Positions 2,523 through 26,407 of a stretch of 48,615 bases of DNA are shown one piece after another. Source of the DNA: a virus; the IMG/VR virus record IMGVR_UViG_3300044630_001938, positions 1 to 48,615 of that record; one strand, 5' to 3'. The notes under the pieces were generated by a model, which saw nothing but the letters and a program-made list of their open reading frames with translations, had not been told where the DNA came from and made no database searches. Made by a program: the position numbers and the translations under genes. Numbering within the stretch: the stretch's first letter is position 1; each line of letters starts with the position of its first letter.

Positions 2523-2523
2523 C

Positions 2524-2548: not shown

Positions 2549-2550
2549 AC

Positions 2551-2573: not shown

Positions 2574-2588
2574 GTGCCCGTATAAGGC

Positions 2589-2605: not shown

Positions 2606-2635
2606 ATTAAGGCTTGGCCACCTTACGACACATAC

Positions 2636-2704
2636 ATGAAGGCCACGACAGCCAACACGCAGATTACTGTGCTGGCTCGTCTTTCGGACGCAAGCGGCAT
2701 CTGA
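2636..2704 (+). CDS. Candidate 22-aa peptide behind a CACATAC leader
   Basis: ATG at 2636 follows CGACACATAC, the same leader as the confirmed early genes, and a hairpin lies upstream as in those cases. The frame encodes 22 residues (starts MKATTANTQITVLAR) and ends with TGA at 2702-2704. Against it: the strong terminator at 2551-2573 lies upstream, and the 3' half overlaps the end of the minus-strand lipoprotein gene. It may be a relic or a chance match. Confidence 0.2.
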   Translation: MKATTANTQITVLARLSDASGI

Positions 2705-3374: not shown

Positions 3375-3670
3375 GCCTTCAGTTTCTTTACCCTGTCCTG
3401 CAATAGTTTGAGCATCTCCTGCGAGAAGGCACCGATTATGCAATGGGTGCATGCCTCGTAGATTGGCTCGACTAGTCCATGTAAGGCAAAGTAACTGACT
3501 ACGCCAAGGATGCCGCCTGCGGCGATTCGTCGGACCCAAATTAGCAATGGGTATGACTCGTCGCTGATGAGCAATCGGCAGAGGGCACCGAGGGCACCAA
3601 GGACGGCGACAATCCATCCTCCGTCCTTCAGTTCCTCAAGCGTCTTAGTTAAGTTGGGTTCTGGGTTCAT
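3371..3670 (-). CDS. Holin-like small membrane protein (99 aa)
   Basis: The product is 99 residues, starting MNPEPNLTK at 3670 so that it overlaps the 3' end of the giant gene by 26 nt. Two hydrophobic segments are seen (about residues 18-36, GGWIVAVLGALGALCRLLI, and 49-68), followed by a charged C-terminal helix ending in KKLKA. Size, two membrane spans and basic tail fit a class II holin, which permeabilises the inner membrane at the time of lysis. Its position before a spanin-like lipoprotein supports this. The muralytic enzyme is not next to it; the candidate lies at 43976-44539. Confidence 0.65.
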   Translation of the reverse strand: MNPEPNLTKTLEELKDGGWIVAVLGALGALCRLLISDESYPLLIWVRRIAAGGILGVVSYFALHGLVEPIYEACTHCIIGAFSQEMLKLLQDRVKKLKA

Positions 3671-6600
3671 ACTGATTCTGGTTCTTGGCACCCTTTGCGT
3701 ACCATTTGTACATGTTGATGGCTTCCTTGGTCATGGTCTGGGGCGTATCCACTCCCCTTACGGACATGAACGGAATGCCTTGGACGATGGCCTTCTTGGC
3801 TTCTGCCATGTGGTTGGCCGTCGGGAACTTGGGCCTGATGACTAGCATGGGGCCAGTGAAGCCTGCCAGCCTGTGCATGCCTGCGGCAATCTGCTCGGGG
3901 CTGGCTCCAGCCCTTACGCCCATTGCGTGCAGTGCGGTGGCATGCTCCAGTGCGTTGTTGGTCGGGTCTTCTCCCATGTCAGGGCCGAAGATGCCATGTC
4001 TGGCCTCCTGCCTGTTCATGAGGTTAGTCTTCTCCAGCGGCAAAGTGCCAGCAGGTTGCATCTGCATGGTTCCGAACGAACTGCCGAACTTTTGGGCCAT
4101 GCCCGCCGAGCCTGCGACGCCAGCATTCTTTCCCATTCCCAGATACGGGGCTTGGACATCTTGCTTCATGGTGTCATTGGCCACTTGGAAGGCCTGAGAC
4201 TCGTTCTTGTTGGTGGCCATCATGAAGCCTTCCATGGCGTATCCTCCCATCTTGCCGAACGTCTTGAGGAAGTTGGACACGATGGGAACCGAGCCGAGGT
4301 ATTTGGCACTCTGGGCCGCACGTTCTTGTGCTTCGTCAAACGAGGCGATGTTCTCGGCCAGCACCTTGCCAGTCTTCTTGTCCGTCACGACATACTTGCC
4401 GTCCCTCATGCTGACGTCGGGAATCTCGAAGGCGTCATGGGAGACCTGATTGATGAGGGCGTCCTGCATGCCCGAGTAGTACAACTTGTTGTGCCACAGG
4501 GGGGCACCGTAGTTGGAAGCATAGCCATGGGTGCGTCCGATAGGCACGTTCATGATGACGCCCTGAGGCTTCTCGAAATGAGTGAAGATACGCTTGGCGA
4601 TGTCCTTGCCGTCGGTCATCCCCTCGATGGCCTTGATGGCCCTTTCCTTGGTCATGCGGCCACCACGGATTTCGGTGATTAATTTGTTGAGCGTCCTAAG
4701 TTCGTCGCTTCCGTACTTGTTGTCCCCGATAAGCACCATGTCCATGACGGCATCAATGGTGTTCTTTATGCCGCCGTTGCTGTCTCTGGTAATTTCTGGC
4801 AACTGGGCGATGATTTCATTGGCCGCCAGTCCCATGTGCGTCTTCAGGTTCTGGTTCGTGCCATTCCATTCCATGGTAGCCTGACCAGCCAAGAAGGCAT
4901 CAGGGAACTGGCCAGCATGCAGGGCTTCGATAAAGCCACCGTGTGTCTTCTGCTTCTTTGCTTCCTGTAAGACGTATCCTGCCGCAAGCAGATGACGCTT
5001 CTTCATGCTACTCGTGTTCATGGGGGCGATGATGCCTCCGCCGAGATTGAATAGCGTGACTATGTTGCTGTTGGAGGAGTAACGTGACCTGTGATGGCGT
5101 GCGTCCATGACGACAAGGGCGTCCTTTCTGGACTGCAATGCCCTCATGGCATACCAATTCGTCATGACCCCACGGTAAGCATTGTCCTCGCCGAGGGGGA
5201 TGGTGTCAGGGTAATCAAACTCCCCATCAGCCAAGGGGCCGAGTTTGGCCTTGAGTTCATTGTACCTAGTCTTGAGGCCATCAAGTTCAGGGTCTGGCGT
5301 GTGGCCTAGGTAGGTGGAGACGATGACAGGAGCGTTGTTCTCGAAAATCCTGCCCAGCATCGTCTTTGCGTGGCTAGGTGCGGAAATCCTGTTTCTCTCC
5401 ATCGGGGTGCTAGTTGAAGAGTCCAAGTCGACGTCCACGCCCCTGATAATCTTGAACACGCCGTCGCCAAGAATGTCCATGTCTTGGAGCGTAATCTTGT
5501 TGGGGTCGGCAATCGCCTTCCTCAGGACGTCAGCCCTTTCCTTGGTGACCGTAAAGGACGGAGTGTTTTCATTCGGCGGCTGTAGGCTCCTGTCAATCAT
5601 GTCGATGTAGGCGAGCGGCTCCATTCCTAGGATTGCGGCACGTGTCCTGAAGTCGAAGGCCACCTGCTGTGCAGGCGTCATCTCAAGGTACTTGAATCCC
5701 CTGAATCCAATCTTACGTGCAATCCTCCGTGCATTCTTATAAGCATCGGCAGGCCTGACCCTTCCAGCGGTAAGGCCAGAGGCTTCGGAAGCAAAACTGT
5801 CGAGTTTGATAGGAGTGAGAATGACTGGCTGTTTCGTCTTCATCATTACTTCTGGTTCGGCGGATTGGTAGTTGCCCTTTTCCGTGTGCAAGCCGCCACG
5901 CTTGTTCTTGTAATCGACGATTTGAGAACCTTCCATGTAGTACGCACGCTCCAGATAGGCCAATGCCCTGAGGGTGGTGCGTTGCCAGTTATTGAACAGA
6001 GAAACGTCCTGCCTGAATGAATGGCCTTCCGAGAACATCTCTGGCACTGCCCTCTCCACCCTACGCTTGAAATCGAGGACGCTATCAAGGGCCACTTTGT
6101 CGAAGTCCACTGGAGGCCTTCTCATTTCGTCAAAATCCAGTTCGTAATACTGACCCAGTTCGTCGAGCCTAGCCATGAACTCCTTGTTGAACTGCAATCC
6201 GAAGGTAGCGATGTAGGTTCCGAGAGAATGTACGTTCGTATTGGACGTGTACCTGTTCAGGTTCCTAGATGAGATGCCAGCAAGGCCGAGGATTTCATTG
6301 TTACCGAATCCGTACATCATCGAGTAGGCGTCGCCTTCAAGTGCCATCATGTTTCGGGACATGTCCTGATAGATGGCATCCCAGACCAAGTTATGGACGC
6401 TACCGTCGTAATTCTCGCCGAACACGACCTCTGGAACGTAATCTTCCTTGAGGCCGTACTGCTTCTGGGCCTCCTTGGAAATCTTGTGCTTGATTTCGTG
6501 GTTGAAAGTGACGCTGGTGTCCTTGTTGCTGTTGAGGTAATCCTGAGTAATCAGGTACCTGAACAAGGCCGTGCTATTGTCCCAATGATGCTGTGCGATT

Positions 6601-9600
6601 GCCTCATAGAGTGCATCCCTGTGCTTCGACTTGGTCGAATGGTTTATGTAGGCAAGCGGAGCAGAGACGTTTTCTTTTGCGGCCTCCTTTTCTTGAATGA
6701 GACGCTCGGTCTGCTTGAACTCAGAGACAAGCGACGTGGATGCCGCTTCCTCGAACGTCGAGCCAAGCATGGCATCCTTCTTGGGACCGAACGTAGAGCC
6801 CTGATAAGGGTCAGACTGGAGTTCCTCGATGCCAAGGACGGCGATGCTATCACGGCTGAGTTGAAGCGAACTGGCCACCTCAGCAATCGGTGCGTTGGCA
6901 CGATGGTATGCCGTGACGATGACGTCGCTATGTCGAGCGTGTCCTAGTTGCATTGTTCCAGACGGCGTGCTCTTGTGGCCGCTGTTGCGGGTGGCTTCCT
7001 TTGCCAACTGCCTCACGGACATGATTCTCTTGGCCGACTTGTGCTGCCTGAGGAGTGATTCCTTCCTGACGGGGTCAACCTCTGCTTCTGCTAGGGCCAT
7101 CAGGCTACTCACGTACGCATTGCCCTTCTGGGTCTCAAGGTCGGTGTAGAGAGTGTCCCATCTGTAGGAGCCGATTCCGCTGGTGTAGCCTGCGTAGTCG
7201 GGAACGGTGTCAATTGTGGACAAGCCGTACCTATTAGAATCGCCGCTGATAATCTGGTTCTCCACGCCAGCGAGGGTCACACGCCTAGGCGATTCGGCAG
7301 GCCTTTCAGCCGTGGTAGCCTTGAGCGAGAGACCCCAGTTCGAGATGTCGTTGAGCGTGGTGTCAGAACTCCTGAAGTCTGCGATGGCTAGGTCGAATCC
7401 TGCCACCCTAGCCGAAGCCTCGAGCCTAGCCCTAGCGAAGGCGTCATTGAACAGGTGCCTGTAGGTGGCCATGACAGGCTCCGTGATTGCGTCGAACGCC
7501 CTGAAGTTCGCTTCCACATCCGAAATGGCTTGGAACTTTCCGCTTGGCTGTAAGTGGCGAGGGTCTGAAGCGTTCTCGAGAAGGTCGGGGCGTGAGCCGA
7601 TTTTCTCAGCCCTGTCCTTTTCGTAGAACTGTTCGAGTGCCGCCTTGAGGGAGTCGTCGTGCATCTTACGGATGCTTGCGAGGTATGCGACCATCTCTCC
7701 CTTTTGGTCTTCTGGTGCGGTTTCGATTGCGGCTTCGATTGCCTTGAGGTGCCTGTTGCGTTCGGACAGCAACCTGCTTGCGGCGGACCTGATGGCCACG
7801 GTAGGCGAGTTGATGTTGGTCACATAAGGTGTGGTCGACTGCTCATGGCTTACCCTTCCAGTCGTCGGGTACATTGCCCAGATAAACTTGGCCACCTCTT
7901 CCTTGGAAATCTTGTGCTCTTTATTGTCGTAGAGGAACTCGGCCAATCCCAAGACACGCATTTCGGCCTTGGACACCTGATTCTCCATGAACATCTCGTA
8001 CCACTCGTTGCCAGTCGCAACGTCGACGGCCTTCTTTACTTTTTTAAGGGCACCAGACTTGTTCCTCTCCATCATCGGAACCAAGCCAGTCCTGAGGACG
8101 GAGAGGACCTTCGGTGCGAACTGGATGTAGGAACCGCCGACGGCGAACTGTAGGCCCTGCCTGATGTCGTGCTCGTAAACACCTACGTCGCCAACGGAAA
8201 GGTTGATTCTTTCCCTGCTAGGTGCCGTGCCAGTGACCGCTTCGGTCCTGAGTAGCATGTCCTGAACAGCCTTTGCTTCGGCACGGGTTGCGAACGTCTT
8301 GTCGATGTTGCCGACGTGATAGACGGAATCGGCGGTGAAGATTGGTTTGTCTTCGCCGTTGTAAGTGGCTGAGTCTTCGCTGACGAAATCGTCGGCAAAC
8401 CTCAAGCCGTTGTAGATGTTGGCCTTTCCGCTGGTGGTAGAATGGGCCATCTGCTTGTCCATATCCTCCAGCCTGAATTGACCTTCCCTGAAAAGTATGG
8501 AAGGAATCTCTGCTTCGATTCCGCCCTGAGCCACCCTGTCAGCATAGGCCTTGGCTTCTGCCTCGGTCCTGAATGAATTGACCTTTCTGGTCTTTACTGG
8601 GTTTCCAGCGGCATCGACGCCACTGACGACGTTGTGTCCTACAAGATAGCCGCTCTTGTCGCTCTTTCGGATGATGCTGACGTCGGCCTTGCTCTTGCCA
8701 TCCCATGCGTACCTTTGAAGGTGCGGGGAGTTGGGCATGATAAGGTCGATGACGGCGGACCTGTCTCCGTTGAGTGCTATGGAACGTTCGACATCTGGCA
8801 TGAAGTATCCGCCTTCAGAGGTGGACAGCCTTTCATGCAATTTGCCCAAATCTCCGAAGACATTAGGCATGAGCAGGCCATACCTGTTGATGGAGTTCTG
8901 CATGTGCTGGACGAGGTTTCCTGCATCAGAGCCTTCCGCCCTAAGGACAGGGTATCCTAGGTCCGAACGGCTTGTGGCGTTCGTCCTGTTGTCGACCTTC
9001 ATGGCGAGGAAGTTATCCACGGCGGACCTGACGTTCCTCAGTTCATTAGGCGTCAGATAGCCTTGAACATGGGGGCTTCCGTCAGCCAATGCGGAGGTAG
9101 AGCCCCTCTTGAAATCATCAGACTGCCATGCCCTAAGGTACCCCACCGCATTCAGGAGTATGCTGTTGTGCGTGACCTGAGTGTAGAACGCCGCTTGGAT
9201 GTCCTCCAGCGTGGCGTTTGCTGGCAGGATGACGGTGACATAGCCATCTTCTGGGCTGGCCATGGAATTCAATTCGGCCATGGCGACGACCCTGCTCACC
9301 TCTGCGTCGTCATTCTTGAACTCTGGGAACTCCATGACTTCGCTGTCCTGCATAATCCTCTGGTATGCATCGAAGACGGCATCGTTCTTGTTTCCGTATT
9401 TTGCTAGGTAACTCGCAGACATCTTCCTAGTGTTCACGCCGCCATAGACACGCTTAACTATGGCCTTGGCACCCGCTTCGTACTGAAGCCTTACGACGGG
9501 GTCGGTGAAGTCCATGTACGAAGCCGCACGGCGTCCTATGTCGGTCTTGCTCTTCTCATGGTAGAAACGCCTCAGGATAGAGAGCGGGGACATGGGGATT

Positions 9601-12600
9601 AAGGTGCCAGACTCTACATCCCATCCGAGCGTACGCCTGTGGGACATGCCCATAGCCGTGATGTATTCCGTTCCCTGAGAGGCGTCCAGATAGCCCCCTA
9701 TGTTGGTATCGGGTGAGATGTTCAGCATGATGCGTCCGTCTTCGAGACGCTTCCATGCGAAACCTAGGCTGGGCCTGTCTCTTTCGGACGTGCGGGAAGA
9801 GACGAACGACTGTCCGCTGAAAGCAATCGCAACAGGGTCCTGAAGATAGAAGGCTTCCGCCCTCTTTTCCTTGGAACTGACGCCGATGAAGGCACTGCTG
9901 ACACGCTTAGTGGACGTAAACCTTGCAGGCTGGACGGAAAGTTCCGTGGTGCCCATCTGCTCGGCGGCGGCGGCGAGCCTGTTGACCATGAGTTTCCTTC
10001 TGGCTACGGCACCGATGGGGTATTTCCTAGTCTGTAGCGACACAACGTTTCTCTTTTCGCCATTGCCGACGAAATGAGGAGCGATTGCACCTTGTTCTTC
10101 CCCTGTATGCTTGTACCAAGCGTCCTTTATGCCCGTCGCCATGCCGTCGTTATCAATTTGAAGGTACTCCGTCCTTGCCTCGTCGGTGTATTTTGCGATG
10201 GCGTCGTACAGGCTGATGGGCCCAGAGATGACGCTCACCCTATTGTTCACCCCCATGTTAATCTTACTACGAATGTCCGTTTGGCTGATTGAGGCCCTGC
10301 TCCTTTGCGTTCCCAATGCACTTCCAAAGCCAGCCTCCTGCATGTAGGTTTCGGTGGCGACTGAATCCACGTCAAAACCCTTGTCCTTAAGACGCCTGTA
10401 CGAAGGCATTGGCCTTGCGTAAACCAAGGAATCACTGTCTGCCACGTATTCACGGGACCTGTTTCTGACACGGCCAGAGGTGGAGTAAGGATGCCTATTC
10501 GGCAACCTAGTCTCTATCTCCTTAGCGGCGGCGAGTCCGAAGAAGACGCCACGCCACATGTCGACCTCAAGGGCGGATGCCCTGATTCGCTCGTGCATGT
10601 ACTTGTTGACGTCGGCACTCTTGCCCCTCGGAGAGTCCTTGGTGTAAAGTTGGCTGTCTCCGAAGGCGTCGTCGAATCCGTGGATGGCACCAAGTTCGTT
10701 GGCCTTGTTCAGCCTTTCCGCTCTTTCTGGGTGCTCCATCGCCAAGATGTGGGTGTTGAGCATGTTCATCCTAAGCACCACGCCGTCGACTACGCTGGCA
10801 CCAGAGCACTCGTAAATAAGCCTTTGGAGGTATCCAGAGTCTTGGCTGGCAATCCATTCGGTAAGTTTCTGATTGAACGCCGCCCTCTGTGCTGGGTCCC
10901 TCATGTCAGCGGTCTTGGCACTTTCGACCAGTTCGCTGAACTTCTCGGTCATCAGGCCCCCACGCTTGTGCATGACGGAAGTACCTTCAGTGACGGGGAA
11001 TCCGAGCGTATCATGAGCGAGCACGTAAGGTGCAAGCATGAGGCCCAAGACGCCGTGATTGAGTTTAGGACCGCTCAGGTACTTGTTCTTGGTCATCTCA
11101 GAGCCGCTGAAGATGCCGCCCGTCTGATAGTCCGAGTTTATCTGGTCACGCAGGTTGCTCGTGGCAAACTGGATGAGGTCTGTAGTTCCTTCGGCCATCA
11201 GGTCATGATACGACAGGAACATGTTGTGGCTTGCGTACATCTGTCCGCCCACGACTATCCAGACATTGTTGGGCATGACGGATGACAATCCAGCGGCCTC
11301 CTGACCATCGGGAGAAAGCCTTTCCAGATAGGACAGCATCACTGGGTTTTGCCTATTGGGAGACAGAACCATGGTGTCATTGTTCATCACTGCGGAACCA
11401 ATCAGGCCAGTGACTACGCCTTCGATGGAGTGTGCCGTGGTGTTTATGGCCCTAGCAACCTCCTGCGGCAGGCCCTGCTCGGAGCCGACATCAGGGAAGA
11501 TAGCCGACGTGGGCTGGTCTGGCTCGGCGATGGACAGGTCCAAGTCCACGAACGACTTGTCCTTGATGGTTATCAGGGAGGCACCTGCGACGATGGTTGA
11601 GGCGTTGTTGACGAACCTATGAGGCGTCATCACCTCGATGGGTGCGGTATTGTTGGGTAGCCTATACACCCCGTTCTTGTCGATAGCCACTCCGCCAAAT
11701 GCGTTTGCATGTGCGGCGAATGAGTCCAACTGCATTTCAAGGACGGAACTAATGTCCTTTTCTTCGGCTTTGGCCATTTCATACCTGCGGTCAAGACGCC
11801 CGATTATGTCCTCAAAGGCCGCATCTTGCGTAAGGCCTTCCTGCATGAGCCTATCGACCTCCCCGAGGACCTCACGGGAGTTCCACTCACTCTCAAGGAT
11901 GTTTTGTCTGGTTTCTCCAGCCTGAAGGCCCATGTGCATCCTCGTGACCCTTTCCTTCATGTCTCGGACGTTGTCCTTCCTGTTCTGAACTATTTCAACG
12001 TACGAACGCATCCTCCCCATCATTCCGCCGAAATCGCCTTCTGACCAGTTGCTATGCTGAATCCTGAACTGGTCCTGCAAGTCATGGAAACTTCCAGTAA
12101 GATAGTCGGACAAGCCCTTGCCTGTGTTGCGAGACGAGTCGTTGTATTCTTCTGCGGCAGTGAGGATGGTCCTTTCCTTCCTGTTCATGGCCATGGCAGG
12201 ACTCAACTCCAAGCCTAACTCACGCCTTGCCAATCCCTCCTGAGGAATGGTTCCAAACAGGAAATTGCCATGCAACATGTGTAGCGAGGGCATGAATCCC
12301 TGCACAGGGATAGGAACATTGGGCCTAAGCCTTTGGTTGTAGCCTCCAGATTCCCTAATGCTTGCGGCATGCGACGTTTCTCCGTAGATTCTTCCAAGTC
12401 CACGAATGGTGGATTCGGTTACGTTGATGGTGGAGTCGAATCCTCCAACCATGCCGTAAGTCTCGGTCTGGGTCGCCCTGCTACCAGAGTACTGGTCCAT
12501 GTAGGAAATTCTGAGTGCGGCGATTTCCACCTCTTCCATCATGGCCATCCAAAGTACCTTGGCTTTATTCGGGTCCTTCTTGTTCTGCTCGATGATGGAC

Positions 12601-15600
12601 TCGTAGGCCTTTTCCATGACTGGCTCCATCAGCACGGCCAGCCTAGAAAGCCTTTCATTCATGGCGTCCGCACGTTCTGATGCGATTTGCGGGTCCATGT
12701 TCATGCCATGTCCGACGATTCTCTGGTTTACGCCTTTGCTAATCCTTTCCCTGAATGCCTTGATGTCATCAAGAGGGATTCCAGCCTCTGCGGCGGCCTC
12801 AAACATGGGGGCCTCGAAAGAAATGTGGCCACCAGAAACCTTGAACCTGCCGTAAGTGTATTCCTTGTTTCCTCCAGCAAACGGAAGACTCCTGTTTCCG
12901 TTCCTGTTGACGAAGAGGATGTTCTTAACAGCCGACTTGGCCAACTGAGGATAAAGTTTAATAATCCTCATCTTCATCTCCTTGGTAATCGTCCTGCCCT
13001 CGACGTTCTTTGCCCTGTTGGTTCCGATGTTGGTTTCGGATACGTTGTACAACATCTCCAAGTCGGAGTGGTTGTACGCCATGAGGTTAAGCAGGTCGTT
13101 CTTGGTGAGGACCTTTTCTTGGTCTAGCCTGCCGACGATACTGTCAAGTAGCACTAGGTCTGCGGACTCCTTGCTGTATTCGCCGAGAAGCCCCTTGATT
13201 TCGCTTACCTTGAAGACGGGGGGAAATTCATCTCCAGCGACCTTGTCCATGACGGAGTTTCCAAGGCTGAGGATGTCTTCGCTTTCAATCTTGATGCCAG
13301 CAATTTCGGCTATCTCTCCGATGGTGTAGGTTCCGCTTTCTTTCTGGACGTTGTAGAGAGGATAGGCCGTGCGATTGACGCCTTCCTGCAAGGTGGTAGG
13401 CCTGAACTTCTTGGACAACCTAGCGACGGCGTCGTTGAAATCCCCAGAGACCACATAGTTTCCAGTCACGAGGGTCATCTTGCCGTCAACGACTTCCCAG
13501 CCCTTTTGGCTTACAAGGAACCTTCTGATGTTGGTGAATTCGGCGTTGGACTTGGCCAGCAGGAACCTTGATAGGGCGAACTTGCCGAGCAATGTGAATG
13601 CGTTGTTATCTGCGTAATCCTTGGACTCGCCGATGCCACCGATGGACATCATGACCGTCCTTACTGGACTCACATAGCCCTTATCAAAGGCATCAAACGA
13701 AGCAGTCTGCTTCTCCATGAGGCCTTTTGTCGTTTCCACCGTGGACGAATCCATGGCCTTTTGAATGATGCCCAGCACGGAGCCCTGAGGAAGGATGTCT
13801 TCCGTAAAGGTCCTCGGGCTCTTGGACAACTCTTCCTGCGTAAGCATACGCCTGCTCTCGGTCTCACGAGCCATCCTTTCGGACGGCGTCATGATGTAGT
13901 CCAAGTCTACGAAGTCCTCGAATGCCTGCCTGATGAGCAACTTACGCTGTTGCGGCGTAGCCTTTTCAATGGCGACGACGCTCCTGACGAGACCTAGGGC
14001 CGAGGTAGCCGCCCTGAAATCCACGTCGAAGTGCATGTTGGCGGAGTAACTCGGGTACTTGCTCCTGATTTCCTCTCTGACGGCCATCATCTCCTTGTAG
14101 GTGGTCAGGGCGTCATGAACGCTTTCCACGCCTTCCTGTGCTCTGTCCAATGCAAGCATCCTACGTGAAATGCCCTCATCCATCCTGCCTGCGTCAACCT
14201 CAGCGGCCACGAAGGCGGACAGGTTGCGGACGGCGGTCTTGAGAAGCGGCTTTGCGTTACTGCTAAGTTCCCTGAATACGGGCGAGTCCTTAGCCAATGC
14301 AATCCTGCTGGCCAAGGCGTTGACATCCTTGGTTGCGGTAATGTCGGCGTCGGACCAGATGGAGTTCTGCTTCATGGCCTTGCCGATAACATCGGCGTCG
14401 GCGAAGTTCGTCCTGACGCCAAGCAGGTTGGCGAAGTGGCCGATGGCGACCTCTTTGTTCAGGTTAAAGAAATGGCCGTGCTCGGAGTCCATGTTGGCCA
14501 TGTACTGTAGCACGTGCTGTGCTTCGTGCAGGACGATGGACGCCAAGGGATTCTGCTCGATGTGCTTGGCGGAAGCGGACTGTGGGTCGCTGAAGATGAG
14601 ACCTTCTGGGTCGTTCTTCATGTTCAGTTCCGAGTTGGCGAAAGACCTGACGCCGAGTTCGATGATGTGCTCTCCGTTGGGAAGGGTTACGGCGGAACCG
14701 CCATGGCCGTCCACCCACTTGACCCTGACGTCACGCATCTCAGGGTAGTAGTAGTACATGGACTCATGCCCGAACACCTTGCCGAGCGTCGTCTCCTTGC
14801 CGATTTGCTTGTGCCGAGGGATGTACTTCTCGGACTTGGGGTCAGCCGCCCTACGCTTGACCTCGAATGCGTAGTCGGAGAATGCCTGCTCTGCGTCGGG
14901 CATGCCAGCAAAGGGAAGCAGGTGTGCCTTGCCCTGCGATGCCGCAAGGTCTAGGTAGGCGTCGGCATCAGAGAACTCGAAGGCTAAGATGCTCCTGTTT
15001 CCGAACCTTATTTCCTTGGCAAGGCCAGTGCGGATTACTTCCTCACGCCTATTGGGCTTGAGTGCATCTACTCCGCCGATGGAGAAACTCCTGTTGTATG
15101 TCTGCTCTGAGGCGTCATGGAACTTCTTCTGACGGGCACGGCTTGCCTCGACACGCTTGGCGAGCGACCCCGCATCGTAGCCGAACAGCCTGTGGAACTG
15201 AGAGGAGGTGCCGTGCTGGTAATGAAGTTCAATCAGCGTAGTATCTCCGCCGACATCCCATAGCCCAGAGGCCATGGTGTTGTGGTCGGCGACTGCTTCG
15301 TGCCAATAAGCGGTGGAAGCGTTCTTGAGTTCTGCCTGATAGGCAGGCTTGGCCATGTTCTCAGGGGTGCCATACCTGCTCTTGAACCTAGCCTGAGCGG
15401 AGTTCTCGTCAGCCGCCAAGGCAAGTTTCCTGAACGAAATAGCACTTTCGAGCGAGGCTTGATTGCCAGAGTCTAGGGCGATGTCAAAGAGCCCCTGTGC
15501 GAGGGTCAGCGGGTTGTTGTCCTTTGCGAACTCAGTCCATACCTTGACCACGTGCTCGTCCGCACCACTCACGGAGGACACGAGCGTGTAAGAAAGGTCT

Positions 15601-18600
15601 TTTGCTATGTTAGGCAACTCGGACTTCCCGAACCTAGCACCAGTAACGTAGTCTACAATCGTGTTAGGCAGGGCGGAGAACTGCGGCAGGGGAGCCAGAC
15701 GCTTCGCCCTATTCTCCATGACGTTAGTCGGGGCCTCGGTGCCGCCCCTTACGGCGAGTCTGTTGCTTACGGAGATGTTAAAGACGATTCCTTCTCCAGT
15801 AGCGATGGAACTCTTGGAGCCTCCTTGGCCGACGCCTTCATACCTGATGGAGATGAAGTTACCCCTCCTAGAACTTTCGGCGATAGGGCTGATGCTTGGG
15901 ATTACCCTAGTTCCACCAGCACTGGCCCTAGGATTCGGGCCAGCCTTCATCATGCCAGACGGGTCAATGCCTTTCGCAAGGTACTGAAGGTCGGAGTACT
16001 CCTGATGGAGTGCGTGGTTGAAATAAGTCTTTGCCACGAAACTGACATCTCCACGCTGGGACTCTGGGAGGGAGTTCATGAACTTCTCGAAAGCCTTTGC
16101 ATGGACGGAGTAGTCCTTGTTGGCCGAGATGAACACGGACAGGCCGTCAGAGTTCTGAATGGGCACAGCCACCCCTTCTTTGTCGACCAAGTTCAACTGC
16201 CTAAGGGCTTCGACAACATTCTTGTTCCTAGACCACTGGCCGTTGAATGCACGGTCCAGCGTCTGGATTACCTTATTTGACGCATCTTGATTGTACTTGG
16301 ACTTGATGATTTCACCAAGCAGGTTCCTTATGTCTGCGTCGTTGCTGGAGTCCCTAATCTGCTCCCACTTGGGCTCTTTGGAATCCTCGCACCATTCATG
16401 TCTAGCGACCACGTCGTCGTATGCGGCCTTGTAGGTCTGTGGAAGTTCCTTGCCCTCGAGCCTAGGGTCGGAAAGCAACTTCCAGCCTTCCGCTACGGCC
16501 TGCTGGAACTGCCTGTTCTCTAGGTTAAGGCTATCGACCCTCTTGGTTACAGAGGAAGTAAGGAGGTTCCCGTCGTGATAGGAACGTGCAATCTTGCTCA
16601 GGTGCGATTCGAGCAGGTTGCTGAATACCTCTTCGGACTTCTGCCTAGACAAGCCATCAAAGAAGGTCTTGTCGAAAGTTATGACGGGAAGCATGTCGTA
16701 CATTTGACCTTCTACTTCCATCGGCGAACCTAGGTTTGCGAAGTCGACCTTCTTCCTATCGGGAGGCATGTCGTCTTCCCTAATCCTGATGCCTTCAAAG
16801 AACCTTTCTGGTAGCCCGTTGCTCAGTGCGTAAGCCTTGAACTTCTTCCTTTCGGATTCTGGGTAGAAATCCATGAGGCCCATTCCGTTGCCCCTCATGC
16901 GGGTGTCCGTAATCTTCCTTACGAATTCGTCTGGTCCGTTACGCTCAAGCGTAATGCCGACTCCATTCTCTGCCACTCCTTCGACGGACAGGTTGCCCCT
17001 AGCCTTCAGAATCTTGGACTGGTGGTAGTTAAGTTTGTCCTCTTGAATCCTCTTGAGCCTTTCGGGCCTGTTCATCTGCGACCACTGCTCGTCCGTAGGA
17101 AGGGCCAGCACGTCGGCGGCGTCCATGTCCTTCCTGAGGTGCTTTTGTGCCGCCTTGAATGCCTTGTCCTTGTCTACGTACCTGCCTACCAGTCCGCCAA
17201 AGGGGCTGAACACCTTCCAGCCGCTAGACTCGCTGTTACGTTCACGGATTACCCTGTAGCCCTGTCCGTTGCCGAACATGTTGGCCGAGATTTCCTCAAA
17301 GCCAGCCGTCGACAAGTTACGCCTGAGAGGCTCATAGGACCTGCCATTATGGTAGGGGAACGGTGCGGCGGAGAGTTTCTCGACGCCTACGAGGTTCTCC
17401 AACTTCAGGGAATGGATGGGGAAGTTGGGATTCTCGTGGCTACTGAAGTAACCCTCACGAGGCGGGTTGATGTACGATTCGTCCTTCCTCTTGCTGGCAC
17501 CGAACGTCTCATACATGATGTCCCTCACCTTTTCTGCATCAGCACCGAACTTGGTCCTGAAAAGGGTGGCCGAATCCACACGGGAGGACGGGTCCCTGAG
17601 GAAGTTAAGGAGGTATGCGTGGAAGTCCGCATTGAAGTCTCCTAGGTTGGTCCAGAGGGCTTTTACGTCTGGGCGGGACCAAGTCTTAATCTGCCTGCGG
17701 TGAACGGCAGTGTAGTCCATGACCGTGGCGGTGAAGCCGCCCCTAGGAGACCTTAGTCCCTTTCCGCTTCCGTCTGTGGTCCTGTAGTAGACCTTGAGTT
17801 CAAATGGAACGAACACCCTGTTCGTGGCAGGAACGTCGTCGCCAAAGATACGCCTGAAGATGTTTCCAGACACCGTGCGGTGGCTGTCGCCGATGTTGAT
17901 GGCGTAGACAAGGTTGCTGGTGGCGAATCCGCTGGACTCATACTGCATGTAGGTATCCCTGAAGACCTTGGCAACACGGCCAGATTCTGGGTCTAGGAAG
18001 CCGCCATCAACGAAGGCGTCGATGACCTCGTCCTTCATGGTGTAGACGTCAGCCGTCCTGTTGCCGTGCTCGTCGACGGTAATTTTGGGCTTAAGGTTGT
18101 CAGGGAGGGCGTCGATGACGTCGAACGCACCCTTGGCGTTATTGGAGGACATCTCGTTCCTCTCCTTCTCGCCCTTGAGGGTGGCACCATTGCCACTCAT
18201 GTTGAACAAGAACTCCTTGCGATGCTTCTTGGCGATGGCCAACTGCATCTCGGGAGACAACTTGCCGACAGGACCGTCGTTCGTGTTGCGAGCGGCTTGG
18301 ACCATGTTCTTCAGCAGGTTGTCCATCTCTGGCCATCTGTAGTAGACGCCGTCGTCGTAAACCATGGCTTGGACGGTGGGCGTTCCATCCTTGGTCAGGG
18401 GGCCTCCGTGCTTTGCCATGACGCCAGCAAGTTCCAATTCGGTCTGCATCCTAGCGAGACGCTCGGTGTACTTGCGTTCAAAGTACATCCTGAGGGGCTT
18501 TTCCTCTGGCGTCAGGACCAAGTCCTGTAAGTTGGTGTGAATGAACATGTTTTCGGCATGTCCAGAGACGAACTCCTCAAAGATGTACCTTAGGGGGGCC

Positions 18601-20858
18601 TGTCCGTAGCCTAGGTTGTTGGGCTTTTGCTTCTGGCTGGCGAAGGAATAGACCTTGGGGACCTGCTCTCCGTTGACGTCAATCGTCTGGTGGAAGGCCT
18701 CATAGCCAGCACCAGTGCCGACCTGATTGGCACGGAGTTCCCTCAGTGCTTCCTCGAAATACTTCACGCTACCTACGGTATCCTTGTCGCCATTGAAAAT
18801 CTGGTTGGCAATCTGCTGGTAGCCATCCCTCGTGTTGGCACCGCCCATTTCAAGTGCGGTCTCAAGTGAGTGACGCATGGCGGCCCTGTATGCCATCCTA
18901 GCGTCAGCCTCGACGCCGCCGTCCTTGCTGGTACCGAAGAACTCGGCAAGATGAGTTCCAATCTGTCCCCTCGTGCTGAGGTTCCAAATCATGAGGTGGC
19001 CTAGGGCTTCGTGTCCGAAGTCGGCAGGCCTGTACTTCTTGGGGTTAAGCCAGATGAAGGGAACGAACTCACCGCTGGCATCCTTGACCAGATTGAACTG
19101 ACCTCTTGCGGAGTCAGCGAGGTACCTCATCGGGTCCACCACGCCACGGGCGGCTAGGACCTTGGCCGCTTCCTCAAAGGGGGCGGCGGTGGCGATAATC
19201 TGCTTCTTCTGCTTTGCGTCTAGGCTGGTGTGAAGGTGCTGGATGTTGAACCTAGCATTGGCGGAGATGCGGGTAGACTTGCCCTTGTCTGCGTCAAGGA
19301 ACACAAGCCTAGCAAAATTAGCGAACTCTGGGCTGAACTGCTCGAGTTTCGGCATGAACTTCTCGTCGAAGTCCTTGATGTACCTCTCATGCTGGACGAG
19401 GCCATTGATGTTGCCCCACATGTGCCTTACGGCACCGCTGTAGCCACCCCAGACCATGCCCATGGCGGCACCACCGACGGCACCACGCTCCCTGTCGTTC
19501 ATGTAGCCAAGGCCTGCGAAGAAGGCGGCGTCCTTGTAGCCGTGCTTCAGGGCGGCGGTGGACATCTGAAGCATCGGGTCCACTACCACGTTCAAGAACT
19601 TGGCGGTGTTCTGAGCGGAACCGCTCATTAGTTTGTTGCCAGCGACACGCTCCAGCACGGACAAACCATTAATCTGCTCGGCGGCGACGACGCCGCTTGC
19701 GAGCATGCTTGCTTGCTCTCCGATTTCTCCAGCGATTTCAGCCGTGGTCCTGAGGCCGAGAGAGCCAAGGTAGCCAACGGTTTGCCTGACTTCGCCAGCA
19801 CCGATGTCGGCCATGCCGTTTACTGCGGCGGTGGCGGTCATGTTCCTAGCCTGAGCAGAGGACATGCCGCTTCTTGCGGCCACGGCGTCGATGTTCTTTC
19901 CGATGACGCTCTCCACCATGTTGGCAGGAATGGAGATGGCCTTTGAAAGGCCAGTAGCGACGGCACCAGTCGCCCTGAGGGCGGCACCAGCGGCGAGGGC
20001 ATCAAGCCTCTTGCCAGCCTCGGTGAAGGTGCCCATGACCTTGGCGTAGGTAGACTGCTTTGCGGCCTGAAAGGCCAGCCTCTCAGCACTCGTTGCACCT
20101 GCGGCGATAGCCAAACCTGCACTAGCACCGCCAGTAAAGGGTGCGGTCAGCAGGGAAGGAAGTTCTAGGCCAATGAAAGAGATTGCGTGGGCAATCTTGG
20201 GGTTGGAGAACGACCTGAGTTTCTGGGCGGTGGCCTCGGACATGTTGACGTACGGAAGCGTCTCGTACACCGACATGTCGCCCTGCATAATCTTGTAACT
20301 ATCCCAAAGGAACTTGCGGGTCTCGTTCCACTGCTGGGCTTCTTCTTCCCAGTTCTGTGAAACCTTTCCGCTCTTGATGGCCCTGATGGCCGACCTAAAT
20401 CCGAACAAAAGGGACGTAGGATTCTCCGACTCGCCAATCATGCCGTAAAGGTCCCTCACCGAGCGGACGACGCCTTCCGAGGCGGATGCGGCAATCGTCA
20501 AAGGGTTCCCTTTCTCTTCGACCAATCCCTCCATGAAGGTGAGGGGGACTTTTGCGATTTCGCCGCCGACCTCGGCGATTTGCTCCATCCAATTGACATG
20601 CCTGTTGTGCATGCCCTTGACCAACTTCTCCCAGTGTTGCTTGGCGTCGGACCTGCTTAGGTCGATGACCTTGTTGGGGTTGGCGGCGTACCACTCCGCC
20701 AAGTTGTCTTCTTCGGCGGTCTGCGGGATGCCGAACACGTCCTTCTTGGGCGAAGTCGGCTGAAGGCTCAACCTTCCGCCAGCCATACGCATGGCGTTTG
20801 CGTACTGGGCGGTCTTGTTGTAGTCTTCTTGGGGCGGGAGGAGGGGGTCGGATTCCAT
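3645..20858 (-). CDS. Giant polyvalent virion protein (5737 aa)
   Basis: This gene covers 17.2 kb. The start overlaps the previous stop (GAGTAATGGAATC). The first ~550 residues contain Gly/Ala-rich hydrophobic stretches (near 226-255 and 457-475) that could enter membranes. HEALGH at 616-621 fits an HExxGH zincin. Residues 1925-2125 match the phage polyvalent block that starts FSIGG, contains a YPEMRDVRV strand and ends in an H-E-x-Q-H zinc site (HEAQH, 2111-2115). Around W4286 lies the W...E...G...FL...ISKEE module, followed by GHARHSD and EELQSD (4678-4683), the usual order in large phage and plasmid polyvalent proteins. Small beta-beta-alpha repeats occur near 1213, 4069, 4178 and 5487. 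Its place after the tail and internal proteins suggests it is packaged and injected. No RNA polymerase or Walker motif was found. Podophages of the Bcep22 type also carry proteins of over 4000 residues. Confidence 0.8.
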   Translation of the reverse strand: MESDPLLPPQEDYNKTAQYANAMRMAGGRLSLQPTSPKKDVFGIPQTAEEDNLAEWYAANPNKVIDLSRSDAKQHWEKLVKGMHNRHVNWMEQIAEVGGEIAKVPLTFMEGLVEEKGNPLTIAASASEGVVRSVRDLYGMIGESENPTSLLFGFRSAIRAIKSGKVSQNWEEEAQQWNETRKFLWDSYKIMQGDMSVYETLPYVNMSEATAQKLRSFSNPKIAHAISFIGLELPSLLTAPFTGGASAGLAIAAGATSAERLAFQAAKQSTYAKVMGTFTEAGKRLDALAAGAALRATGAVATGLSKAISIPANMVESVIGKNIDAVAARSGMSSAQARNMTATAAVNGMADIGAGEVRQTVGYLGSLGLRTTAEIAGEIGEQASMLASGVVAAEQINGLSVLERVAGNKLMSGSAQNTAKFLNVVVDPMLQMSTAALKHGYKDAAFFAGLGYMNDRERGAVGGAAMGMVWGGYSGAVRHMWGNINGLVQHERYIKDFDEKFMPKLEQFSPEFANFARLVFLDADKGKSTRISANARFNIQHLHTSLDAKQKKQIIATAAPFEEAAKVLAARGVVDPMRYLADSARGQFNLVKDASGEFVPFIWLNPKKYRPADFGHEALGHLMIWNLSTRGQIGTHLAEFFGTSKDGGVEADARMAYRAAMRHSLETALEMGGANTRDGYQQIANQIFNGDKDTVGSVKYFEEALRELRANQVGTGAGYEAFHQTIDVNGEQVPKVYSFASQKQKPNNLGYGQAPLRYIFEEFVSGHAENMFIHTNLQDLVLTPEEKPLRMYFERKYTERLARMQTELELAGVMAKHGGPLTKDGTPTVQAMVYDDGVYYRWPEMDNLLKNMVQAARNTNDGPVGKLSPEMQLAIAKKHRKEFLFNMSGNGATLKGEKERNEMSSNNAKGAFDVIDALPDNLKPKITVDEHGNRTADVYTMKDEVIDAFVDGGFLDPESGRVAKVFRDTYMQYESSGFATSNLVYAINIGDSHRTVSGNIFRRIFGDDVPATNRVFVPFELKVYYRTTDGSGKGLRSPRGGFTATVMDYTAVHRRQIKTWSRPDVKALWTNLGDFNADFHAYLLNFLRDPSSRVDSATLFRTKFGADAEKVRDIMYETFGASKRKDESYINPPREGYFSSHENPNFPIHSLKLENLVGVEKLSAAPFPYHNGRSYEPLRRNLSTAGFEEISANMFGNGQGYRVIRERNSESSGWKVFSPFGGLVGRYVDKDKAFKAAQKHLRKDMDAADVLALPTDEQWSQMNRPERLKRIQEDKLNYHQSKILKARGNLSVEGVAENGVGITLERNGPDEFVRKITDTRMRGNGMGLMDFYPESERKKFKAYALSNGLPERFFEGIRIREDDMPPDRKKVDFANLGSPMEVEGQMYDMLPVITFDKTFFDGLSRQKSEEVFSNLLESHLSKIARSYHDGNLLTSSVTKRVDSLNLENRQFQQAVAEGWKLLSDPRLEGKELPQTYKAAYDDVVARHEWCEDSKEPKWEQIRDSSNDADIRNLLGEIIKSKYNQDASNKVIQTLDRAFNGQWSRNKNVVEALRQLNLVDKEGVAVPIQNSDGLSVFISANKDYSVHAKAFEKFMNSLPESQRGDVSFVAKTYFNHALHQEYSDLQYLAKGIDPSGMMKAGPNPRASAGGTRVIPSISPIAESSRRGNFISIRYEGVGQGGSKSSIATGEGIVFNISVSNRLAVRGGTEAPTNVMENRAKRLAPLPQFSALPNTIVDYVTGARFGKSELPNIAKDLSYTLVSSVSGADEHVVKVWTEFAKDNNPLTLAQGLFDIALDSGNQASLESAISFRKLALAADENSAQARFKSRYGTPENMAKPAYQAELKNASTAYWHEAVADHNTMASGLWDVGGDTTLIELHYQHGTSSQFHRLFGYDAGSLAKRVEASRARQKKFHDASEQTYNRSFSIGGVDALKPNRREEVIRTGLAKEIRFGNRSILAFEFSDADAYLDLAASQGKAHLLPFAGMPDAEQAFSDYAFEVKRRAADPKSEKYIPRHKQIGKETTLGKVFGHESMYYYYPEMRDVRVKWVDGHGGSAVTLPNGEHIIELGVRSFANSELNMKNDPEGLIFSDPQSASAKHIEQNPLASIVLHEAQHVLQYMANMDSEHGHFFNLNKEVAIGHFANLLGVRTNFADADVIGKAMKQNSIWSDADITATKDVNALASRIALAKDSPVFRELSSNAKPLLKTAVRNLSAFVAAEVDAGRMDEGISRRMLALDRAQEGVESVHDALTTYKEMMAVREEIRSKYPSYSANMHFDVDFRAATSALGLVRSVVAIEKATPQQRKLLIRQAFEDFVDLDYIMTPSERMARETESRRMLTQEELSKSPRTFTEDILPQGSVLGIIQKAMDSSTVETTKGLMEKQTASFDAFDKGYVSPVRTVMMSIGGIGESKDYADNNAFTLLGKFALSRFLLAKSNAEFTNIRRFLVSQKGWEVVDGKMTLVTGNYVVSGDFNDAVARLSKKFRPTTLQEGVNRTAYPLYNVQKESGTYTIGEIAEIAGIKIESEDILSLGNSVMDKVAGDEFPPVFKVSEIKGLLGEYSKESADLVLLDSIVGRLDQEKVLTKNDLLNLMAYNHSDLEMLYNVSETNIGTNRAKNVEGRTITKEMKMRIIKLYPQLAKSAVKNILFVNRNGNRSLPFAGGNKEYTYGRFKVSGGHISFEAPMFEAAAEAGIPLDDIKAFRERISKGVNQRIVGHGMNMDPQIASERADAMNERLSRLAVLMEPVMEKAYESIIEQNKKDPNKAKVLWMAMMEEVEIAALRISYMDQYSGSRATQTETYGMVGGFDSTINVTESTIRGLGRIYGETSHAASIRESGGYNQRLRPNVPIPVQGFMPSLHMLHGNFLFGTIPQEGLARRELGLELSPAMAMNRKERTILTAAEEYNDSSRNTGKGLSDYLTGSFHDLQDQFRIQHSNWSEGDFGGMMGRMRSYVEIVQNRKDNVRDMKERVTRMHMGLQAGETRQNILESEWNSREVLGEVDRLMQEGLTQDAAFEDIIGRLDRRYEMAKAEEKDISSVLEMQLDSFAAHANAFGGVAIDKNGVYRLPNNTAPIEVMTPHRFVNNASTIVAGASLITIKDKSFVDLDLSIAEPDQPTSAIFPDVGSEQGLPQEVARAINTTAHSIEGVVTGLIGSAVMNNDTMVLSPNRQNPVMLSYLERLSPDGQEAAGLSSVMPNNVWIVVGGQMYASHNMFLSYHDLMAEGTTDLIQFATSNLRDQINSDYQTGGIFSGSEMTKNKYLSGPKLNHGVLGLMLAPYVLAHDTLGFPVTEGTSVMHKRGGLMTEKFSELVESAKTADMRDPAQRAAFNQKLTEWIASQDSGYLQRLIYECSGASVVDGVVLRMNMLNTHILAMEHPERAERLNKANELGAIHGFDDAFGDSQLYTKDSPRGKSADVNKYMHERIRASALEVDMWRGVFFGLAAAKEIETRLPNRHPYSTSGRVRNRSREYVADSDSLVYARPMPSYRRLKDKGFDVDSVATETYMQEAGFGSALGTQRSRASISQTDIRSKINMGVNNRVSVISGPISLYDAIAKYTDEARTEYLQIDNDGMATGIKDAWYKHTGEEQGAIAPHFVGNGEKRNVVSLQTRKYPIGAVARRKLMVNRLAAAAEQMGTTELSVQPARFTSTKRVSSAFIGVSSKEKRAEAFYLQDPVAIAFSGQSFVSSRTSERDRPSLGFAWKRLEDGRIMLNISPDTNIGGYLDASQGTEYITAMGMSHRRTLGWDVESGTLIPMSPLSILRRFYHEKSKTDIGRRAASYMDFTDPVVRLQYEAGAKAIVKRVYGGVNTRKMSASYLAKYGNKNDAVFDAYQRIMQDSEVMEFPEFKNDDAEVSRVVAMAELNSMASPEDGYVTVILPANATLEDIQAAFYTQVTHNSILLNAVGYLRAWQSDDFKRGSTSALADGSPHVQGYLTPNELRNVRSAVDNFLAMKVDNRTNATSRSDLGYPVLRAEGSDAGNLVQHMQNSINRYGLLMPNVFGDLGKLHERLSTSEGGYFMPDVERSIALNGDRSAVIDLIMPNSPHLQRYAWDGKSKADVSIIRKSDKSGYLVGHNVVSGVDAAGNPVKTRKVNSFRTEAEAKAYADRVAQGGIEAEIPSILFREGQFRLEDMDKQMAHSTTSGKANIYNGLRFADDFVSEDSATYNGEDKPIFTADSVYHVGNIDKTFATRAEAKAVQDMLLRTEAVTGTAPSRERINLSVGDVGVYEHDIRQGLQFAVGGSYIQFAPKVLSVLRTGLVPMMERNKSGALKKVKKAVDVATGNEWYEMFMENQVSKAEMRVLGLAEFLYDNKEHKISKEEVAKFIWAMYPTTGRVSHEQSTTPYVTNINSPTVAIRSAASRLLSERNRHLKAIEAAIETAPEDQKGEMVAYLASIRKMHDDSLKAALEQFYEKDRAEKIGSRPDLLENASDPRHLQPSGKFQAISDVEANFRAFDAITEPVMATYRHLFNDAFARARLEASARVAGFDLAIADFRSSDTTLNDISNWGLSLKATTAERPAESPRRVTLAGVENQIISGDSNRYGLSTIDTVPDYAGYTSGIGSYRWDTLYTDLETQKGNAYVSSLMALAEAEVDPVRKESLLRQHKSAKRIMSVRQLAKEATRNSGHKSTPSGTMQLGHARHSDVIVTAYHRANAPIAEVASSLQLSRDSIAVLGIEELQSDPYQGSTFGPKKDAMLGSTFEEAASTSLVSEFKQTERLIQEKEAAKENVSAPLAYINHSTKSKHRDALYEAIAQHHWDNSTALFRYLITQDYLNSNKDTSVTFNHEIKHKISKEAQKQYGLKEDYVPEVVFGENYDGSVHNLVWDAIYQDMSRNMMALEGDAYSMMYGFGNNEILGLAGISSRNLNRYTSNTNVHSLGTYIATFGLQFNKEFMARLDELGQYYELDFDEMRRPPVDFDKVALDSVLDFKRRVERAVPEMFSEGHSFRQDVSLFNNWQRTTLRALAYLERAYYMEGSQIVDYKNKRGGLHTEKGNYQSAEPEVMMKTKQPVILTPIKLDSFASEASGLTAGRVRPADAYKNARRIARKIGFRGFKYLEMTPAQQVAFDFRTRAAILGMEPLAYIDMIDRSLQPPNENTPSFTVTKERADVLRKAIADPNKITLQDMDILGDGVFKIIRGVDVDLDSSTSTPMERNRISAPSHAKTMLGRIFENNAPVIVSTYLGHTPDPELDGLKTRYNELKAKLGPLADGEFDYPDTIPLGEDNAYRGVMTNWYAMRALQSRKDALVVMDARHHRSRYSSNSNIVTLFNLGGGIIAPMNTSSMKKRHLLAAGYVLQEAKKQKTHGGFIEALHAGQFPDAFLAGQATMEWNGTNQNLKTHMGLAANEIIAQLPEITRDSNGGIKNTIDAVMDMVLIGDNKYGSDELRTLNKLITEIRGGRMTKERAIKAIEGMTDGKDIAKRIFTHFEKPQGVIMNVPIGRTHGYASNYGAPLWHNKLYYSGMQDALINQVSHDAFEIPDVSMRDGKYVVTDKKTGKVLAENIASFDEAQERAAQSAKYLGSVPIVSNFLKTFGKMGGYAMEGFMMATNKNESQAFQVANDTMKQDVQAPYLGMGKNAGVAGSAGMAQKFGSSFGTMQMQPAGTLPLEKTNLMNRQEARHGIFGPDMGEDPTNNALEHATALHAMGVRAGASPEQIAAGMHRLAGFTGPMLVIRPKFPTANHMAEAKKAIVQGIPFMSVRGVDTPQTMTKEAINMYKWYAKGAKNQNQYEPRTQLN

Positions 20859-25723: not shown

Positions 25724-26407
25724 TTAAGTGGCTTGTGCGGCGGCACCCTGAGCACGGAGCGAGGCAAACATGACTACTTCGTCTACTGGGGTCGGGTTAG
25801 TGCCAAGATTAGGCTGGGCGTTGACAAGGTACGAGGCGGCGGCTTGAGACTGACGAATCTGCTGTGAGCGAATGGAGCCAGCGGAGTGGGCCTCTACGGC
25901 AGAAGAACATGCATCCGCCACCAACTGGGATTCGACAGGGACGACCAGCGGCATGCCAGAAGTGGCCTGATACGTGATGCCCATCAACCCCTGTGCCAGC
26001 CTAGCGGCGGCTTCATGAATCATGAGTTGCCTGTCTTGGGTGGCCAAGTTTCCGTACAAATCAACGCTGGAATGGCCACCACCCATGGCGGCACTCATGC
26101 CAGAAAGAAACTGGCTGTATGCGACATTCGGAGTGGTTATGGTGCTACCATAGACATCCGTCTTAATCAGGTTGAGTAGCGTCGTGAACTCAGTTCTTGC
26201 GTTGTTAGCAAGCGTGCCAGAAACATCGGTGTACCTATTTTTGAGTACGGTGCCAACTCCGAGTTCAGCCGCCGCCCAATCTCCGCTCGGGTCTACGATG
26301 TCTTTTAGGAGTGCTGAGGTGTACTCCAACTCATCCTTAGGGTCACGTGTCTTGAACGTGAACCCAGCACCTGTATAGTCAGCGTATGGCTTGGCGGGGT
26401 AGGGCAT
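25724..26407 (-). CDS. Late virion-associated protein (227 aa)
   Basis: Starts MPYPAKPYADYTGAGF, with a TAATG overlap with the tail-nozzle gene. The protein is Ala/Ser/Thr-rich and mostly helical, with long stretches of small residues (about 150-227). No signal peptide, membrane span or enzyme motif is clear. It is the first gene after the nozzle protein, the place of the internal-protein block in T7-like maps. Function is inferred from position only. Confidence 0.5.
   Translation of the reverse strand: MPYPAKPYADYTGAGFTFKTRDPKDELEYTSALLKDIVDPSGDWAAAELGVGTVLKNRYTDVSGTLANNARTEFTTLLNLIKTDVYGSTITTPNVAYSQFLSGMSAAMGGGHSSVDLYGNLATQDRQLMIHEAAARLAQGLMGITYQATSGMPLVVPVESQLVADACSSAVEAHSAGSIRSQQIRQSQAAASYLVNAQPNLGTNPTPVDEVVMFASLRAQGAAAQAT

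Follow-up and report, generated by a model that had tools for sequence, protein, structure and literature searches.

Why a phage should commit so much of its genome to one protein, and what such a protein does for it, is the question posed by the 48,615-nt stretch of viral DNA considered here (the window), which is a whole IMG/VR record. The gene concerned is on the minus strand, with its ATG at 20858 and its stop at 3645, and its 5,737 codons include no internal stop, something expected by chance with a probability of about 10^-120. Its GC content by codon position (0.54/0.41/0.70) is like that of neighboring genes. The open reading frame described in an earlier note, which did not give the strand, is real, and its product is most probably carried inside the virion of a LUZ24-like short-tailed phage, to be ejected as loosely folded subdomains and to deliver domains to the host.

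Three relatives, G001, G002 and G005, read continuously across both ends of the window, where about 350 nt are without counterpart in them, and the gene order of G002 is a circular permutation of that in the window. Given this continuity over its ends, the window is a genome of 48.6 kb, circularly permuted and close to complete, and the giant's share of 35.4% holds, which bears out the earlier figure of 35%. The giant protein was searched for tandem repeats and internal self-similarity and neither was found, so it is not a repeated fiber, the outcome that the earlier note had named as fatal to its own interpretation.

The late operon runs on the minus strand from the terminase large subunit (TerL) gene through those for portal, a scaffold-like protein, capsid, adaptor and stopper to a block whose last two genes are the giant and one of lysis type. 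Its features are:

38070..39698, minus strand: terminase large subunit (TerL), 31% identical to Phage C75C1 and 79-98% within the clade
35629..37878, minus strand: portal protein, 27% identical to Phage C75C1
32870..34276, minus strand: SU10-type major capsid protein (match 4.8e-35)
31761..32576, minus strand: SU10-type adaptor (match 3.5e-6)
26407..27831, minus strand: head-closure Hc3-like (P22 gp10 type) stopper (phrog_578, 4e-7), a short-tailed-phage marker
20858..25767, minus strand: five genes upstream of the giant (20858-21811, 21811-22611, 22618-24330, 24290-25099 and 25123-25767), whose products, 1,636 aa with no Cys, are proposed to be co-ejected
3645..20858, minus strand: giant gene, 5,737 aa, ~630 kDa, 2 Cys, frame intact in relatives

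The giant is the next-to-last gene of the virion operon, after the capsid, stopper and tail genes, and the largest of a six-gene, almost Cys-free block with which the virion module ends. Its start codon overlaps the stop of the upstream gene at 20858. Among named phages the nearest is C75C1, by both TerL and portal, together with, for TerL, Bruynoghevirus LUZ24 (about 26%). These affinities and the gene types of the late operon indicate a short-tailed phage that is distantly LUZ24-like. No tail-tube gene was recognized among the virion genes, and a TerL scan of genome contigs confirmed no host.

Other genes of the window merit mention. The product of the gene after the giant, 2664-3617, reads from an internal Met MKYFIVLLLCGCAATPP, which is lipobox-like, and continues with a coiled coil and hydrophobic segments; it has a weak PHROG hemolysin match (7e-4) and is possibly a lysis protein of the spanin/holin type. 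Upstream of TerL, at 39695-41618, are three more Cys-free genes (39695-40435, 40537-41271 and 41277-41618; 603 aa), perhaps for additional internal virion proteins, and the product of the middle one is only 30-37% identical between phages with TerL 93-98% identical. The three tRNA genes (1975-2048, 45246-45320 and 45325-45398) are for Arg (CCT) and, adjacent to each other, Ala (TGC and GGC). A small replication and recombination set (45946-46878, 1224-1967, 47754-48428 and 42171-42683), in which no polymerase was recognized, comprises an exonuclease VIII-like gene (PHROG 2e-40) and genes judged by eye to be ERF-like, DnaC-like and RusA-like.

The giant is not peculiar to one record. Direct scans of IMG/VR gave six contigs with recognizable giants, and a TerL scan of the same collection gave 52 contigs with TerL 79-98% identical, many of them near 48-50 kb. 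Of 20 clade records tested with two giant blocks, 16 matched one and 17 the other, and the giant is present in every near-complete clade member examined, in genomes of 48-52 kb. Complete giant frames in relatives are of 5,615-6,436 aa and occupy 35-39% of the record. Two relatives span the whole giant, at 46-49% identity (5,715 and 5,749 aa), and have the frame intact, as do three others whose giant is cut by contig ends. Identity to the window protein ranges from 17 to 71% across the clade, and dN/dS is 0.08-0.18 for closer pairs, pointing to a protein under purifying selection yet fast-evolving. Where giant identity is down to 17-21%, TerL is still near 80% identical. Ejection proteins diverge rapidly relative to portal (PMC8954989), a pattern that the giant's fast divergence against a conserved TerL parallels; the contrast is unusually steep, which could come from very rapid evolution or from ancient exchanges of the terminase module. 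A tblastn search of 50,697 phage records with the giant and its distant members found no cultured relative.

In one relative, G019 (L115), the giant is present as two ORFs, of 2,367 and 3,293 aa, with an ATGA overlap at 8079-8091. The junction is just after the HExxH region and a Shine-Dalgarno-like GAGAAGAGG is upstream; the split may be genuine or due to an assembly error of one base, and none of the conclusions depends on it.

Alignment of relatives reveals a mosaic in which conserved blocks alternate with hypervariable linkers (1260-1900, 2600-3600, 3800-4000 and 4700-5150). The strong blocks are at 100-500, 800-1260, 1900-2150 and parts of 2300-2600 in the N-terminal half, and at 3700-3750, 4000-4340, 4600-4700, 5200-5300 and 5400-5550 in the C-terminal half; residues 1101-1150 are 56% identical even to distant members. 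Helix-turn-helix (HTH) DNA-binding domains are appended at the C-terminus in G009 (L104), where the HTH_28 match of 9.7e-9 is over the Pfam cut-off, and, with weaker matches, in G016 (L112) and G022 (L118), and are lacking in the window. The parts of the chain are:

19419..20201, minus strand: residues 220-480, Gly/Ala/Ser-rich (41%), semi-hydrophobic helices
17079..19406, minus strand: residues 485-1260, the clade's most conserved block, predicted fold matching phage polyvalent models
18996..19013, minus strand: residues 616-621, HEALGH (HExxxH), with H616, E617 and H621 at least 90% conserved
13824..15161, minus strand: residues 1900-2345, metallopeptidase-like region, strands and then an HExxH helix in the AF2 model
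14514..14528, minus strand: residues 2111-2115, HEAQH, invariant in near relatives
10059..13061, minus strand: residues 2600-3600, fast-evolving, unrecognized
7779..8891, minus strand: residues 3990-4360, conserved block GYFxPDxER..., unrecognized
6759..7061, minus strand: residues 4600-4700, EELQSD module, with invariant H4628, H4640, R4642 and EExQSDxxQ
3648..4661, minus strand: residues 5400-5737, conserved C-terminus GYxxNYGxPxW

Several of the modules that the earlier note had picked out are recognizable here, others less so. Its EELQSD module, at 4678-4683, is invariant in near relatives and kept clade-wide, and one of its metallopeptidase-like sites, the HExxH at 2111-2115, is as described. 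The clade consensus of the latter is LHE[IV]QHAIQxxE, of which the H, E, Q and H are kept by all members aligned there. Distant members carry a Glu at +10, the presumed third zinc ligand; it is replaced in the window's lineage, which has an invariant Glu at +15, and so the peptidase may be inactive in that lineage. The proposal of two metallopeptidase sites is not supported, since in addition to this loss the site at 616 is HExxxH, a spacing that does not put the two His one helical turn apart, and for that reason it is not called a peptidase. The N-terminus had been thought membrane-prone, but it has semi-hydrophobic helices only, as in N4 vRNAP and T7 gp16. No classical transmembrane segment was found in the giant, the highest 19-residue Kyte-Doolittle mean being 1.28 (residues 222-240). 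Residues 220-480, with a conserved motif GLGYxN...WGGxSGxxRH at 449-479, are nevertheless a possible membrane- or ejectosome-contact segment. A W-type module could not be identified in the giant. Within the stretch for which the earlier note could name no motif (2200-4000), residues 2600-4000 are indeed unrecognized; they are mostly the giant's fastest-evolving part and might hold new folds.

Library searches were largely empty. Tiled against Pfam and PHROGs, the window giant gave nothing significant; 12-13 relatives were scanned as well, and the giant family is absent from both libraries; no catalytic domain was recognized with Pfam, PHROGs or PADLOC (the last on the second half of the chain), and among effector domains SNF2, MTase, ART, RNAP, lysozyme and PBECR went without match in the giant. 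Matches to YopH_N (0.002), SprT-like (0.12) and Thioredoxin_8 (0.29), being under cut-offs and not common to relatives, are regarded as due to chance; that to SprT-like falls on the HEAQH helix. PDB sequence profiles had no match to the giant, and HMMs of its blocks found nothing among T7, N4, LUZ24, C75C1 and BcepIL02 proteins.

Fold comparison was more informative. The AF2 model of 485-1260 (pLDDT 75, pTM 0.66, 16 sequences) matches BFVD models from uncultured Caudovirales phages with E values of 5e-17 to 3e-11 at 14-19% identity, several of them named 'Large polyvalent protein associated domain' or 'ART-PolyVal-like'. Their TM-scores are 0.19-0.38, so that a polyvalent relationship is supported though the superposition is not tight; low TM-scores are expected for long multi-domain chains. 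The region 1900-2345 (pLDDT 78, pTM 0.76) is predicted to have strands ahead of its HExxH helix, which is the arrangement given for the polyvalent MPTase, in which a three-stranded sheet precedes the HExxH helix and a second helix with Glu (PMC5512222). PDB fold searches, with Foldseek for 1900-2345, gave nothing significant for either model; the comparison with viral models covered 485-1260.

The EELQSD module also extends beyond the clade. The pattern EE[ILV]QSDW.Q is in at least 120 other viral contigs of IMG/VR, where by our own estimate well under one chance match is expected. In 80 independent phage ORFs with EEIQSD, H...PN[IV]LAH.R usually stands ahead of the motif, and in the window GHARHSDVIVTAYHRA precedes EELQSD. 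A clade profile that includes the motif matches 77 of the 80 proteins, a result to be discounted because the motif was used to pick them; a motif-free profile, of the region upstream, gives 28 weak matches, 23 of them directly upstream of the motif. The giant accordingly shares with polyvalent proteins a single chain made of different conserved modules (the blocks between hypervariable linkers and, in some relatives, the appended HTH domains) and modules common to other members (the 485-1260 fold and the EExQSD motif). The lack of a named effector domain, a common but not obligatory feature, lowers the claim to membership without excluding it.

The clearest link to ejection is what the chain avoids. 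From the genome's other virion genes 54 Cys would be expected in the giant, which has 2 in 5,737 residues (Poisson P about 5e-21), and the five upstream genes have none in 1,636 (P about 2e-7). Clade giants together have 79 in 132,424 residues (0.060%). Known podovirus ejection proteins are similar. T7 gp15 and gp16 have none (0/747 and 0/1,318), nor do P22 gp7, gp16 and gp20, SU10 gp21-gp24, N4 gp51, gp52 and vRNAP gp50 (0/2,342 in its N-terminal part), crAss001 gp46 and the part of gp47 available, BcepIL02 gp70 (0/4,667), LUZ24 gp50-53 and the large C75C1 proteins. The 80 EEIQSD ORFs have 18 Cys in 94,846 residues (0.019%) and 69 have none at all, while the other ORFs of their loci average 0.855%; in 62 of 66 pairs it is the EEIQSD ORF that has the smaller share (Wilcoxon 4e-12). 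Large proteins that are not ejected do have Cys: it is present in TerL and stopper of both the window and P22, and in fibers and spikes (N4 gp65 11, SU10 gp17 9, P22 gp9 8, lambda J 11); this phage's replication proteins, the ERF-like one excepted, are not depleted. The absence of Cys is a correlate of ejection proteins and not their definition, as T7 gp14 has one (1/196), P1 DarB, a virion antirestriction protein, has 9 in 2,255 and P1 DarA 1 in 639; nor is it exclusive to ejected proteins, given the P22 scaffold (0/303) and the lambda tape measure gpH (0/853). For N4-like vRNAPs, Cys absence has been suggested to serve passage through tail and periplasm (PMC3715699, PMC5795418). The extension to polyvalent proteins, to P22, T7 and SU10 ejection proteins, and to the present clade is calculated here and was not found in the literature searched.

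The giant's genomic slot is that of LUZ24 gp50 (1,055 aa), T7 gp14-16, N4 gp50-52 and BcepIL02 gp70, and comparison with each is instructive. LUZ24 and C75C1, the nearest phages by TerL/portal and synteny, have in this place large Cys-free proteins (LUZ24 gp50-gp53; C75C1 2,769, 375 and 1,343 aa), but these are the products of separate genes and have no detectable homology to the giant. N4 vRNAP gp50, which is ejected through a narrow tail (PMC12633501), is, like the giant, huge, with an HExxH, a Gly/Ala-rich N-terminus and small Cys-free neighbors, gp51 and gp52. The giant, however, is 1.6 times as long, an RNAP domain has no Pfam or PHROG match in it, and HMM comparison with gp50, over the first 2,342 residues of the latter, showed no similarity. 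The DarB-like giants of Bcep22-like phages (BcepIL02 gp70, JC1 gp69), of 4.5-4.7 thousand residues and about 22% of the genome, also close the virion module and have one HExxH, and for JC1 gp69 (4,515 aa, a relative of BcepIL02 gp70) 51 unique peptides came from CsCl-purified virions (PMC9144972). They are DarB-like methylase/helicase proteins, in contrast to the window giant, in which no DNA methylase or SNF2 helicase domain was found, which has no HMM similarity to BcepIL02 gp70, and which is larger in a smaller genome. With the phage polyvalent proteins (Iyer et al. 2017, PMC5512222) it has in common a multi-domain chain of great size encoded next to virion genes, an HExxH site of possible MPTase type and, by fold, models matched by 485-1260; it differs in that none of their named SNF2, MTase, ART, RNAP and lysozyme domains is recognized, in being longer than any polyvalent protein met in these searches and in being without sequence relatives in cultured phages.

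How such a protein might work is suggested by these systems. Starting from the observed gene, its position, clade-wide conservation, Cys avoidance, motif residues and polyvalent fold match, we infer its co-transcription and, by analogy with T7, N4 and Bcep22-like phages, its packaging, ejection, cleavage and targets. It would work in the manner of N4 vRNAP, T7 gp16 and the DarB-like giants, though with other modules of polyvalent type, most of them unrecognized. The giant would be the largest of six co-transcribed ejection proteins, packed in a few copies inside the capsid, and would exit through the narrow passage of portal and tail, either ahead of the DNA or together with it. It would do so as loosely folded subdomains, a route proposed for N4 vRNAP (PMC12633501). 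Its N-terminal segment and five small Cys-free partners might serve envelope crossing, so that its domains would reach the envelope and cytoplasm of the host as infection begins. The HExxH domain may free modules by self-cleavage, as polyvalent proteins have been suggested to do (PMC5512222). The targets of the EE.QSD module and of the C-terminal part may be the incoming DNA or early host defenses. That LHE[IV]QHAIQ and EE.QSD are kept in members only 17-20% identical fits putative active or binding sites.

The earlier suggestion of a polyvalent, probably injected protein is therefore supported by the 485-1260 fold, the clade-wide HExxH and EE.QSD, the place behind the tail genes, where the virion module ends, and the Cys signature. 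Its idea that several enzymes are delivered in one chain is conjectural, no catalytic domain having been recognized by Pfam, PHROGs or PADLOC. Counting against the reading as an injected polyvalent protein are the want of detected sequence homology to any known ejection protein tested, the lack of a Pfam, PHROG or PADLOC catalytic domain and of significant PDB fold matches, the replaced third zinc ligand in the window's lineage, and the exceptions to the Cys rule, namely depletion in P22 scaffold and lambda tape measure and the 9 Cys of P1 DarB. Some of this would suit a structural ejectosome scaffold and nothing more, a trans-envelope conduit, like T7 gp15 and gp16 without enzymes, in which the motifs are remnants and no effector reaches the cytoplasm. 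The Gly/Ala-rich N-terminal helices like those of N4 vRNAP and T7 gp16, the absence of a recognizable catalytic domain and the replaced third ligand of the peptidase all agree with it. It is nonetheless rather unlikely, as the HExxH and EExQSD residues do not vary even where identity elsewhere drops to 17-20%, the fold of 485-1260 is similar to that of polyvalent effectors and some members have HTH domains appended.

It is improbable that the giant is made early or in mid-infection for use inside the cell and has no place in the virion. Polyvalent domains are also known outside virions (PMC5512222), but the gene is coupled to the late virion operon by the start-stop overlap at 20858, and Cys depletion has no evident reason in the cytosol, replication proteins other than the ERF-like one being free of it. 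Its size and the tail genes nearby could bring to mind an extracellular tail or adsorption protein, a giant fiber or depolymerase. The want of repeats, predictions that are alpha/beta and helical globular with no beta-helix, the polyvalent fold matches and the near lack of Cys, which the tested fibers and spikes carry, make that very improbable indeed. A tape-measure protein of a long-tailed phage is scarcely credible even though such proteins are long and can, like lambda gpH, be Cys-free. The virion genes point to a short tail (P22-like stopper, SU10-type adaptor and capsid), no tail-tube gene was recognized, the annotated relatives of TerL and portal are podoviruses, and with tape measure length at about 0.15 nm per residue 5,737 residues would specify a tail close to 0.9 µm.

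The reading of the giant as an ejected internal virion protein thus places it in a known kind, the giant ejected polyvalent protein, of which this clade's chain is extreme. What is new is the combination of no recognizable catalytic domain, no cultured sequence relatives and 5.6-6.4 thousand residues in genomes of 48-52 kb. A more tentative thought is that it is a one-gene, self-processing carrier, in which the clade has merged into one ~630-710 kDa chain what in other podoviruses is spread over several ejection proteins, and in which blocks 485-1260, 3990-4360, 4600-4700 and 5400-5737 would be new effector folds at work during the first minutes of infection. As known podovirus ejection proteins and the 80 EEIQSD proteins are nearly without Cys, ejected proteins could be forecast from sequence. 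Cys content, a point made in the papers found for N4-like vRNAPs only (PMC3715699, PMC5795418), would then be a cheap predictor, and here forecasts five further genes. The giant sharpens the question raised by N4 vRNAP (3,500 residues) of how a chain exceeding the tail channel exits the head and works in the cell. Its conserved blocks, for which there is no solved structure, are good targets for the discovery of early-infection effectors, and a phage that spends more than a third of its genome on one protein must gain greatly from it.
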